A stretch of DNA of 64,000 nucleotides, from the NCBI GenBank assembly GCA_026014735.1, contig JAOZHT010000003.1:1-64000 (forward strand), given 5' to 3'. The notes under the pieces were generated by a model. It made no database searches. It saw only the letters and a list, made by a program, of their open reading frames with translations, and was not told the DNA's origin. Source of the stretch: Candidatus Bathyarchaeota archaeon (GTDB lineage: Archaea > Thermoproteota > Bathyarchaeia > Bathyarchaeales > Bathycorpusculaceae). The translations under genes and the position numbers were made by a program. Shown here piece after piece: positions 44,316-47,548 of this stretch (positions within the stretch are counted from its first letter, which is position 1; every line of letters starts with the position of its first letter).

Positions 44316-44873
44316 ATGGCAAGCCACGGAAAATTCACCCTCGACGAAGCACAGCGGCGCAGCTGGTACAGCCCCGAGGTTGCCCTAGCAGACCTAAAAG
44401 AGGGCGACATATTCGTGGATGTGGGATGCGGCGACGGCTACTTCAGCATCTTGGCGGCAAAGAAGGTGGGGGCAACGGGTAAGGTGTACTCGGTGGATGT
44501 GGATTCATCAGGCGTGGAGAAGCTGCAGAGCAAAGCCAAAGCCGAAGGCCTAATCAACATCACCTCAAGGGCAGGCAAAGCCGAAGAAACCGTGTTCTGC
44601 CATGGCTGCGCCGACATGGTTTTTTTCAGCATGGACCTGCATGACTTCAGCGACCCCAAAAAAGTGCTTGAGAACGCCTTCGTGATGATTAAGCCCTCGG
44701 GGAAGGTGGTGGATTTAGACTGGAAAAAGCAAAGCACACCGTTTGGTCCACCCGAGCGGATACGCTTCAGCGAGCAATACGTCACTGAACTCTTGGACGC
44801 CACCGGGTTTGTGGTGGAATCCATCGGGGAAGCAGGACCCTACCACTACGTAATCAAAGCTAGACCCCGCTAG
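44316..44873 (+). CDS. Class I SAM-dependent methyltransferase
   Basis: A 185-residue methyltransferase. Motif I is FVDVGCGDGYFSI, with KVYSVDVD as the ribose-binding strand and MVFFSMDLHDFSDPKKVLENAFVMIKPSGKVVDLDW for motifs II-III. It resembles UbiE/arsenite-methyltransferase-like enzymes, but the substrate is unknown. Its stop overlaps the convergent hydrolase gene in a shared CTAG. Confidence 0.82.
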   Translation: MASHGKFTLDEAQRRSWYSPEVALADLKEGDIFVDVGCGDGYFSILAAKKVGATGKVYSVDVDSSGVEKLQSKAKAEGLINITSRAGKAEETVFCHGCADMVFFSMDLHDFSDPKKVLENAFVMIKPSGKVVDLDWKKQSTPFGPPERIRFSEQYVTELLDATGFVVESIGEAGPYHYVIKARPR

Positions 44874-45496
44874 GACTCGGCGTTGGCGTAGAGTTCAAGC
44901 AGGTCGCGCCTAAACCATTCGGGGCGGTCCTGGTAGGCGGAGTGGGCGGCGCCGTTGTAGACGAGCAGTTTGGCGTTAGGTAACCTGTCGGCTAGGGCAC
45001 GCATTTCCTCGCCGGAGATTAGGCTGTCAAAGGCGCCCCACACGATGCGTATGGGAAACGCGAATCGGTCGTAGGATCCAAGCAATACTTCATCGTCGAA
45101 GGCATGGGCAGGCGCAACCAAAAGCAGCCCCCGCACCGAATGCTGCTGGGCAAAGCGCATGGCAACGTAGCCGCCGTAGCTTGCGCCCACAACCAGGGGG
45201 ACGGCGTCTCCGAAGACCGATTTTGCGGCTTCTGCGGCAAAGGCGATGTTGGCTTGGGGCTCGCGGTTTTTAGGGTGGCACTGGCACTTTACGCCATAGG
45301 GCATATCGAGGGCAAGGAAGGGAATGTGTTTCTCGATTAATGCGTCGGTTAAGCCGATTTCCTGCCATACCTCGATGGTGTAGGATAAACCATGCATTAA
45401 AACCACCGGGGTACCCGCAGCTTTATGGTAAAGCGCGGGGCACGTGAAGCCGCCGATATGGAGCGTTTTCTCCTCCAAGAGATTCACCAGACCCAA
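44870..45496 (-). CDS. Alpha/beta hydrolase
   Basis: A 208-residue alpha/beta-fold hydrolase. The nucleophile elbow is VVGASYGGY (Ser), the acid is in VWGAFDSLIS and the His in NGAAHSAYQDRP. HG in VVLMHGLSY forms the oxyanion hole. It starts at TTG 45496. The substrate is not inferable. Confidence 0.85.
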   Translation of the reverse strand: MGLVNLLEEKTLHIGGFTCPALYHKAAGTPVVLMHGLSYTIEVWQEIGLTDALIEKHIPFLALDMPYGVKCQCHPKNREPQANIAFAAEAAKSVFGDAVPLVVGASYGGYVAMRFAQQHSVRGLLLVAPAHAFDDEVLLGSYDRFAFPIRIVWGAFDSLISGEEMRALADRLPNAKLLVYNGAAHSAYQDRPEWFRRDLLELYANAES

Positions 45497-45585
45497 CCAT
45501 TATGGGCGCTGCATCTTATAACAGTTAAGCAACTGCGTAGACGCGAAAGAAATAATAGCATAGCTAAACCACTTGTTTGTGGTGG

Positions 45586-46068
45586 ATGATTTTGGAGGTT
45601 AAAGTCGGCGATAAAGCCCCAGATTTCACGTTGCCCAGCCAAATGGGCGACAACGTAATCTTATCCGAGTATTTTGGCAAAAAAAGCATCGTGCTCTACT
45701 TTTATCCCAAAGACGAAACCCCCGGCTGCATCAAAGAAGCCTGCAGCTTCCGCGACAGCTACCAGCAACTCGCCGATTTAGGCGCGGAGGTGCTGGGGGT
45801 AAGCGGGCAAAGCGTGGAGTCCCATGTCGCGTTTGCCACCCATTATGGGCTGCCCTTTATTCTGCTTGCCGACGTGGATAACAGGGTGCGGGAACTTTAC
45901 GGTGTCCCCAAAAGCATGGGGATATTGCCGGGACGCGTCACCTACATCATCGACAAGAAAGGCATCGTCCGCCACATTTTCAGCTCGCAGACGCAGGCTC
46001 AGCGGCACGTGGAAGAAGCCAAACGCACACTTGAGGAGATAGAGAAAGAAGAGCAAGCCACCGCATAG
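45586..46068 (+). CDS. bcp: Peroxiredoxin, Bcp/PrxQ type
   Basis: A 160-residue thiol peroxidase. DETPGCIKEACSFRD contains the peroxidatic Cys and a resolving Cys five residues later, the Bcp 2-Cys arrangement. GDKAPDFTLP and VTYIIDKKGIVRHIF complete the fold. ATG 45586 was chosen over the upstream TTG because the family starts shortly before KVGDKAPDF. It precedes the CysRS-like gene by eight bases. Confidence 0.93.
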   Translation: MILEVKVGDKAPDFTLPSQMGDNVILSEYFGKKSIVLYFYPKDETPGCIKEACSFRDSYQQLADLGAEVLGVSGQSVESHVAFATHYGLPFILLADVDNRVRELYGVPKSMGILPGRVTYIIDKKGIVRHIFSSQTQAQRHVEEAKRTLEEIEKEEQATA

Positions 46069-46076
46069 GCGAAAAC

Positions 46077-47303
46077 ATGCTAAACCTCTACAACACCTTA
46101 ACCAGAAAAATCGAGGCTTTCCACCCTATCGCCGCCAGAAACGTCAAAATGTACAGTTGCGGCCCCTCCACGTATCAGCCCCCGCATATAGGAAACTACC
46201 GCACCTTCCTCTTCGAAGATATCCTGCAGCGCTACCTCGAATACCTCGGCTACCCCGTTACGCGGCTGATGTGCCTCACCGACATAGAGGACAAAGCCAT
46301 CATCCAAGCAAAAAAGGAAAACCTCACCGTGGAGGCGCTGACCCAGCGAAACGAGGCGGTGCTGTTTAGTGACTTTGAGTTTCTCCGCATCAAGAAACCC
46401 GCGTTTCCCATCCGTGCTTCAAGCGCCGTGGATCAGGCGGCGATGTTAACCGAGAAGCTGGTGGATTTAGGCTACGCGTACTGGCACCGCTACCGTGGCG
46501 TAGAAAACGCTTATTTTGATCCCCAAAAATTTGTGGGTTTTGGCAAACTGGCGCATCTGGACATGTCCAAGTGGCCCAGGAAGCATCGGCGCTTCCACAA
46601 AGACACCTACCCCGGCACCCCCTGGAACCGAGGCGACTTTATCCTCTGGCACGGCTGCGGCCTACACGACGTATGCTACGACACAGCGGTTGGGGAGGGG
46701 CGCCCCGCATGGAACATCCAGGATCCCGCCATCGCCACAAAGCACCTTGGCTTTGAAGTTGACGTTGCCTGCGGGGGCATCGACGCTTTAGTGCGGCACC
46801 ATGACTATAACCTCGCCGTCGCCGAGGCGGTTTCGGGCAAGCCGTTCTCCCGTTACTGGCTCCATGGGGGACACCTCTTTGTGGATGGAAAAAAGATGTC
46901 TAAGAGCCTTGGCAATGTCTACTATCCCCAGGATGTGCATGCTGAGGGCTACAGTGGAGGGGAACTGCGGTTTTTCCTGGTCTATGGGGCTTACCGTGAG
47001 AAACTGAATTTTACCTTCGAGTTGCTGGGGCAGAGTAAGCGGCGGCTGGATGCGTTAAGGGGCATGGTTGCGGATCTGCAGGGAATAGCCCATGGCAGCG
47101 CCGTGGCTGCGCTGGATGTGGAAGCCGCAGGCATCTTTGAATGCCACATGAACAATGACTTAGACGTGAAGGGCGCCTTCGACGGCCTATACCGTTACGT
47201 AGAAGAAATCCACAGCAAAAGAGCAGGGTTAAACGCGGAAAAAGTAAAAAAGGTGTTAAATAGCCTAAGCAGAGCCGACACGGTGCTGCATTGCCTGCTT
47301 TAA
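46077..47303 (+). CDS. Cysteinyl-tRNA-synthetase-like protein, zinc site lost, no anticodon domain
   Basis: A 408-residue class I synthetase-fold protein. It has NTLTRK, MYSCGP, HIGN (37-40) and KMSKS (273-277). In real CysRS, zinc grips the substrate thiol via Cys28, Cys209, His234 and Glu238. Here Cys28 and the His of the HH pair (241) remain, but WHIEC is WNIQD, putting Asp216 at Cys209, and HHENE is HHDYN, putting Asn245 at Glu238. The C-terminal anticodon-binding region is missing, as in MshC, the mycothiol ligase. It probably activates another amino acid or joins it to a small molecule. No substrate can be named. It lies between bcp and a cytochrome-b5-like gene. Confidence 0.8.
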   Translation: MLNLYNTLTRKIEAFHPIAARNVKMYSCGPSTYQPPHIGNYRTFLFEDILQRYLEYLGYPVTRLMCLTDIEDKAIIQAKKENLTVEALTQRNEAVLFSDFEFLRIKKPAFPIRASSAVDQAAMLTEKLVDLGYAYWHRYRGVENAYFDPQKFVGFGKLAHLDMSKWPRKHRRFHKDTYPGTPWNRGDFILWHGCGLHDVCYDTAVGEGRPAWNIQDPAIATKHLGFEVDVACGGIDALVRHHDYNLAVAEAVSGKPFSRYWLHGGHLFVDGKKMSKSLGNVYYPQDVHAEGYSGGELRFFLVYGAYREKLNFTFELLGQSKRRLDALRGMVADLQGIAHGSAVAALDVEAAGIFECHMNNDLDVKGAFDGLYRYVEEIHSKRAGLNAEKVKKVLNSLSRADTVLHCLL

Positions 47304-47548
47304 ACGAGTTCGCCCACGTACTTTACGCGGTTAAAGTTTTCGTCGCTATGCGGTGCCATCGACAACTCATCAGTTAAGTCTTTGCCTGCATTATGCATGC
47401 CCATATGTTCGCCTTCCATCCAAAAGCTGCTCTCTGAAACGTCATAGACTTTGCCCTGATAGACTATGTAGGCGGGTTTACCGTTCTGCCCGTTGTTTTC
47501 TTCCAGTTCCTGACGGGTTACCTTTTTTTGTTCTGCCAAAAAATTCAC
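47300..47548 (-). CDS. Cytochrome b5-like heme-binding protein
   Basis: An 82-residue single-domain protein: YIVYQGKVYDVSESSFWMEGEHMGMHNAGKDLTDEL and APHSDENFNRV. The two axial His are in HMGMHNAG and PHSDE. It starts at GTG 47548. Its stop overlaps that of the CysRS-like gene in a shared TTAA. It probably carries electrons or binds a steroid-like ligand. Confidence 0.88.
   Translation of the reverse strand: MNFLAEQKKVTRQELEENNGQNGKPAYIVYQGKVYDVSESSFWMEGEHMGMHNAGKDLTDELSMAPHSDENFNRVKYVGELV

Follow-up and report, generated by a model that had tools for sequence, protein, structure and literature searches.

Cysteinyl-tRNA synthetase (CysRS) is a textbook example of an enzyme that selects its amino acid by means of a metal and does no editing. 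The available text of a review names two paralogues of this enzyme, CysRS* and MshC (PMC9437257). MshC, the cysteine:GlcN-Ins ligase of mycothiol synthesis, derives from CysRS, lacks the anticodon-binding domain and is about 410 aa long; in the accessible description of its active site, C43, C231 and H256 bind the zinc together with the thiol of the cysteinyl ligand, and T46, T83 and the carbonyl of G44 contact the amino group of the substrate (PMC9736012). CysRS*, from Desulfobacterales, likewise lacks the anticodon domain and has an altered CP domain; in the available portions of the two papers, it is coupled to selC* and selB* and reported to charge cysteine (PMC9437257, PMC7609411).

Here we describe a CysRS-derived gene from a bathyarchaeal contig (JAOZHT010000003.1, of which the first 64,000 nucleotides were analysed, hereafter ‘the window’; Table 1). 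The predicted 408-aa protein matched Pfam tRNA-synt_1e (235.9 bits) and scored 280.4 bits against NCBIfam cysS (TIGR00435), under the curated cut-off of 340, and 169.8 bits against NCBIfam MshC (TIGR03447), far under the curated cut-off of 485.1. As genes of this kind score below both cut-offs, they may be mislabelled as cysteine-tRNA ligases. In the alignment, CysRS runs on for about 70 residues beyond the last residue of the protein, and so the anticodon-binding end is missing. A first-pass annotation of the DNA had rightly recorded this absence, the presence of HIGN and KMSKS, by which the adenylation motifs are kept, and the replacement of two zinc ligands (Cys by Asp216 and Glu by Asn245), which we find, by alignment with E. 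coli CysRS, to be part of a family-wide rebuilding. It had also allowed that this might be the only CysRS of its host. That is ruled out, because the host genome (2.9 Mb, 99% complete) carries a separate, full-length CysRS (G000:C1:21457-22362; open frame of 499 aa, 387 bits), which has C, C, H and E as its four zinc ligands and retains the C-terminal region. The product of the window gene is a CysRS-type catalytic protein distinct from the housekeeping CysRS.

Table 1 Features of the ligase gene and its surroundings in the window (residue numbers are those of the window protein unless given for CysRS).
Feature	Position	Strand	Remarks
Conserved protein of about 105 aa	43986..44312	+	No Pfam match (L082 homologue scanned); 9/11 archaeal loci
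Class I methyltransferase	44316..44873	+	Pfam; 9/11 archaeal loci
Alpha/beta hydrolase, divergent	44870..45496	-	Pfam; 10/11 archaeal loci
AhpC/TSA peroxiredoxin	45577..46068	+	8 bp upstream of ligase gene; adjoins it in 8/11 archaeal loci
CysRS-derived ligase gene	46077..47303	+	ATG start, intact ORF, 408 aa, no anticodon-binding domain
Cys28 codon (first CysRS zinc ligand)	46158..46160	+	C in 42/42 family rows
Ser31 codon	46167..46169	+	S in 42/42 family rows; Thr in 47/47 CysRS and 3/3 MshC rows
HIGN (class I HIGH motif), residues 37-40	46185..46196	+	From alignment
WNIQD, residues 212-216	46710..46724	+	In place of WHIEC of CysRS and MshC; Asp216 codon gat, 46722-46724
HHDYN, residues 241-245	46797..46811	+	His241 = zinc ligand His234, kept; Asn245 at Glu238, codon aac, 46809-46811
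KMSKS loop, residues 273-277	46893..46907	+	From alignment
Cytochrome b5-like protein, convergent	47300..47548	-	4-bp overlap with end of ligase gene; 9/11 archaeal loci

An AlphaFold2 model of the protein, built from 18 rows and holding no metal, reached a pLDDT of 88.6 and a pTM of 0.90. VIA-align placed it closest to CysRS 8qhp (Z 47.0 over 390 residues at 1.9 A), with the CysRS-type structure 1u0b at 46.7, followed by MshC 3c8z (Z 42.0) and then MetRS (26.8). CysRS-type structures cover the whole length of the model, indicating that no new domain has been gained.

Searching genome contigs with the window protein returned 45 loci, in which relatives and true CysRS were mixed. The relatives, about 42–68% identical to the query, come from Bathyarchaeota, Desulfobacterota-related bacteria and Spirochaetota and share the signature WN[I/V]QD...HHDY. 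A profile built from 27 members gave 545–688 bits for full-length members (624 for the window protein) and about 420 for the best CysRS, the highest scores among non-members being those of archaeal-type CysRS. It matched 18/90 genomes of the window’s own taxonomic family, 10/297 Desulfobacterota genomes and 13/296 Spirochaetota genomes (rows of at least 548 bits); the other 27 of the 40 matched Spirochaetota genomes held only CysRS, at no more than 411 bits, and were excluded from the family count. With the window protein itself as query, 12 of 398 genomes of the window’s phylum were found to have the gene. One of these copies, in the bathyarchaeal genome G201 (L017 / L091), is broken into two overlapping open frames with one in-frame TGA in the match, and is either a decaying gene or an assembly error. 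The family was denser in one Desulfobacterota order, where 22 of the 39 genomes carry it; outside the 7 members already known there, both WN[I/V]QD and HHDY were present in all 15 that were read. Desulfoferrobacter suflitae DRH4 also carries a member. A CysRS above the cut-off accompanied the family gene in 19 of 20 genomes, the exception (G404) having an edge fragment only. The open-access literature searched, which took in few subscription papers, contained no description of this family, and an earlier mention is possible.

Conservation was counted over an alignment of 42 family, 47 CysRS and 3 MshC rows, with E. coli CysRS as the numbering reference. CysRS and the family share the catalytic fold, the HIGN/KMSKS motifs and, in E. 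coli numbering, Cys28, His234, W205, T68 and D229; in the numbering of the window protein, the residues in common include C28, H241, T68, D236, M274 and K276. In the family, unlike in CysRS, the anticodon domain is absent, Cys209 is replaced by Asp and Glu238 by Asn or Thr, and there are four further changes: His206 to Asn, Glu208 to Gln, Thr31 to Ser and Asn237 to Tyr. N213, Q215 and D216 each occupy their positions in 42/42 family rows, where H, E and C stand in 47/47 CysRS rows, and both H241 and Y244 are likewise invariant in the family. Cys at position 209 is present in every CysRS row (47/47) and every MshC row (3/3) and in 0/42 family rows, and a motif check of another 15 members showed Asp216 in every one. 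At the equivalent of Glu238, by comparison, the family varies (N in 24 rows, T in 16, I in 1 and X in 1), making residue 245 an unlikely metal ligand. The possibility raised at first pass of a sequence error at the ligand codons is thus excluded, as neither replacement could have arisen from a Cys or Glu codon by fewer than two base changes, and as Asp216 is family-wide.

The first-pass annotation had described the protein as being without the zinc site. Two ligands have indeed been replaced, but the site itself does not appear to be lost, as Cys28 and His241 are still there along with an invariant Asp. Zinc is commonly bound by Asp, and there is nothing unusual in the chemistry of an Asp-Cys-His site, as class B1 metallo-beta-lactamases show. 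Had zinc been lost, there would be no plain reason for Cys28 and His241 to persist in all 42 rows; a metal site rebuilt as Cys-Asp-His is therefore likelier than the absence of a metal. Nor does the loss of Glu238 in itself do away with the recognition of zinc or cysteine: the position of Glu238 is Ser or Gly in all three MshC rows, and MshC binds both zinc and cysteine without it. The MshC residues correspond in the family to C28 (C43), H241 (H256), T68 (T83), S31 (T46) and, at C231, to Asp, so that the Cys-Cys-His site of MshC is left unmatched at that one ligand. The observation made at first pass is accordingly confirmed, its interpretation is supported in part, and an amino acid other than cysteine remains a plausible substrate.

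Which side chain a Cys-Asp-His site might prefer can be approached through two aminoacyl-tRNA synthetases, methanogen-type SerRS and ThrRS, which are class II enzymes of unrelated fold. Their likeness to the family lies in chemistry only, namely in the use of zinc with other ligand sets: in the accessible text of PMC7373986, serine is selected in methanogen-type SerRS by a zinc with Cys and Glu as ligands, and threonine in ThrRS by a Cys-His-His zinc. As a mixed thiolate-carboxylate site can thus select serine, a hydroxyl or amine side chain is, by analogy, a fair guess for the substrate of the family, with cysteine still a candidate.

Replacement of two of the four zinc ligands would also be expected of a spare, zinc-independent CysRS kept for zinc starvation, and the available part of PMC2770081 gives a precedent in zinc-independent spare enzymes encoded in zinc-regulated clusters. 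We consider this explanation very improbable here: the anticodon domain is missing, Cys28 and His241 have been kept, and no zinc-regulation gene was found among the subset of neighbours that was scanned by Pfam. Moreover, a plasmid-borne cysS beside DksA and FolE2 genes (L166) keeps all four ligands and full length. A pseudo-enzyme acting as a regulator or subunit, a reading that the lack of any known partner or activity would allow, has a similarly slight chance of being correct, as HIGN, KMSK, T68 and D236 show little or no variation across 42 rows from three phyla.

The maximum-likelihood tree (96 rows: 42 family, 47 CysRS, 4 CysRS fusions and 3 MshC; unrooted), from which duplicates, fragments (including the broken G201 copy) and 28 near-duplicate CysRS loci had been left out, recovered the family as one clade (100/100, stem 1.13) adjoining archaeal-type CysRS, which supply its nearest rows. 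MshC formed a separate clade (100/100, stem 1.99) inside the bacterial CysRS side, with the family on the opposite side of CysRS diversity. The proposed resemblance to MshC thus holds for the logic of the enzyme and not for any particular kinship: the two clades arise apart, implying that their likeness is convergent, and score, tree and Cys209 together rule out membership of MshC. A single derivation from archaeal-type CysRS, independent of MshC, is the best explanation of the tree. Three bacterial members (L127, L129 and L130) clustered with the bathyarchaeal L014 (96/83), which, in a tree that is unrooted, suggests transfer between domains. A distinct CysRS-type ligase family, hitherto unnamed and independently derived, is the most defensible description of these proteins.

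The convergence extends to individual residues. Both MshC and the family have lost Glu238 and His224, and they share Phe at 152 and a Tyr or Phe at 237 (2/3 MshC rows); MshC, however, keeps WH[I/V]EC with its Cys209, which the family does not have. CysRS rows agree to 95% or more at 69 positions, of which 18 were lost in the family and 19 in MshC, with 9 common to both (32, 155, 169, 231, 244, 245, 248, 249 and 283); the hypergeometric P for this overlap, 0.017, is descriptive, as columns were taken as independent and MshC is represented by 3 rows. These common losses may go with leaving the ordinary charging of tRNA-Cys. Nine positions were lost only in the family (26, 31, 115, 182, 211, 213, 215, 216 and 217), five of them (211, 213, 215, 216 and 217) in the Cys209 stretch. 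Ten were lost only in MshC, and those kept by the family among them include N6, R42, K73, R168 and F181 (E. coli numbering), residues that might touch RNA.

Throughout the family, the ATP-site motifs and the amino-group residues (T68, and S31 in place of T31) are invariant and the side-chain pocket has been rebuilt. On this basis we favour, with modest confidence, a stand-alone, zinc-assisted aminoacyl-adenylate ligase that would be MshC-like in its working and independent in origin, and whose substrate side chain is possibly not that of cysteine. The family probably attaches an amino acid to something other than tRNA-Cys. More tentatively, and with somewhat less confidence, it may represent a third CysRS-derived kind of enzyme, in which the Cys-Cys-His-Glu zinc site became Cys-Asp-His and moved off cysteine, and which would make an aminoacylated metabolite, cofactor or RNA modification.

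Such a ligase would form an aminoacyl-adenylate from ATP, while zinc on Cys28, Asp216 and His241 would take the substrate side chain at its open position, as the Cys-Cys-His zinc of MshC does. The harder carboxylate ligand would shift preference from a thiolate to a hydroxyl or amine side chain, for example that of serine, and the activated amino acid would pass to an acceptor other than tRNA-Cys, a small amine being likelier than a tRNA. The retention of N6, R42, K73, R168 and F181 counts against this proposal, as an RNA acceptor could still be bound. Weakest of the proposed steps is the last, a role of the product in stress defence, suggested because peroxidase-type genes recur among the neighbours. 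A widespread natural family with one zinc thiolate fixed as Asp and the rest of the catalytic centre kept would illustrate the re-tuning of a metal-based selector, and would point to a product that has gone unrecognised in three lineages that have been little studied.

The recurrence was seen in gene neighbourhoods read from our own picking of the longest non-overlapping ORFs, without annotation. The 11 archaeal loci compared were the window, L036, L081–L088 and L091 (L088 stands in for its near-copies L089 and L090, which were left out), and most of them share the arrangement in Table 1, in which the upstream peroxiredoxin is one that we take to be of the BCP type. The divergent L088-type locus has none of the peroxiredoxin, hydrolase, methyltransferase and cytochrome b5-like neighbours. 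Of the 22 loci of the Desulfobacterota order, 17 have an alpha/beta hydrolase–OsmC fusion nearby, 14 a CNNM/CorC protein, and 13 S30AE together with a cold-shock protein. Three spirochaete loci (L044, L047 and L055) have a glyoxalase-family gene downstream and other spirochaete loci have ABC transporter genes, while superoxide dismutase (L169), a rubrerythrin-like protein (L172) and SufBD (L053) were each seen at a single locus. A peroxide-defence theme therefore recurs near the family gene with different genes in each lineage, and no single operon partner was found across all three phyla. At one further locus (L041:222-3399), the family gene and a response regulator–histidine kinase gene share 4 bp, and a gene for a LuxR-type response regulator follows the family gene.

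Neighbours of the peroxiredoxin, OsmC and glyoxalase types often have links to thiols, and they lend some weight to a ligase that still uses cysteine, its thiolate bound by the Cys-Asp-His zinc, and adds it to an acceptor in an unrecognised low-molecular-weight thiol pathway. The invariance of Cys28, His241 and T68 and the dispensability of Glu238 in MshC are in keeping with this, as is the absence of BshC from all 39 genomes of the same Desulfobacterota order (0/39). We nevertheless think it somewhat doubtful, given that the Cys209 common to every CysRS and MshC row never occurs in the family and that the neighbour links are lineage-bound.

Three candidate partners within that order were assessed and rejected. 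The OsmC fusion (>500 bits) was present in 24/39 genomes, comprising 22/22 bearers of the family and 2/17 non-bearers, a strong raw link that is not independent of phylogeny: on a separate CysRS tree of the 39 genomes, no more than 4 pairs were independent, of which 2 agreed with the link, 0 opposed it and 2 were undecided (p 0.5), so that the link is mostly shared descent. PIG-L deacetylase, which a general aminosugar acceptor of the MshC kind would lead one to expect, was present with or without the family (34/39 genomes; 19/22 bearers versus 15/17 non-bearers), giving no link, and BshC, with its count of 0/39, gave none either.

An enzyme that charges RNA without reading an anticodon, in the manner of CysRS* or GluQ-RS, with an unusual tRNA, a tRNA-like RNA or a modified nucleoside as its target, would account for the five putative RNA-contacting residues that the family has kept and MshC has lost. 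CysRS*, with which the family is compared by description only, also offers a parallel in having no anticodon domain, in its altered CP domain and in its occurrence among Desulfobacterota. Its gene, however, adjoins the selC* tRNA and selB*, whereas no tRNA lay beside the bacterial family loci scanned; ARAGORN found a single tRNA gene in 32 loci, a tRNA-Leu in L036 that is 5.4 kb off, and none in the window, and Rfam gave no match in 11 Desulfobacterota family loci. This near-total lack of tRNA genes speaks against a selC*-selB*-cysS* arrangement, and the cysteine charging reported for CysRS* is a further difference; we therefore regard such an RNA-charging enzyme as unlikely, and retain the MshC-like ligase as the preferred reading.

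Several minor observations were made alongside these searches. Nucleotides 1-48, at the window edge, belong to an archaeal 16S rRNA gene and form its 3' end (Rfam RF01959). Ten of 297 Desulfobacterota genomes had no cysS match at E 1e-45 among the matches listed, owing either to incompleteness or to another route to Cys-tRNA. The plasmid-borne second cysS (L166:4001-5383) also lies beside genes for a carbonate dehydratase and a GTP-binding protein, and is likely to belong to a zinc-starvation cluster. A third type of CysRS-like protein, of about 800 aa, was seen in the Desulfobacterota locus L112, with Pfam matches to a PLP-dependent (cysteine synthase type) domain and a CysRS domain. Fusion-type frames of this kind, 774–889 aa long, occur in 35 of the 39 genomes of the Desulfobacterota order, and in the four rows aligned (L112, L113, L114 and L110) HIGH is altered throughout (NLGH, DLVQ, DLGQ and RMGH) and three of the four are without Glu238.
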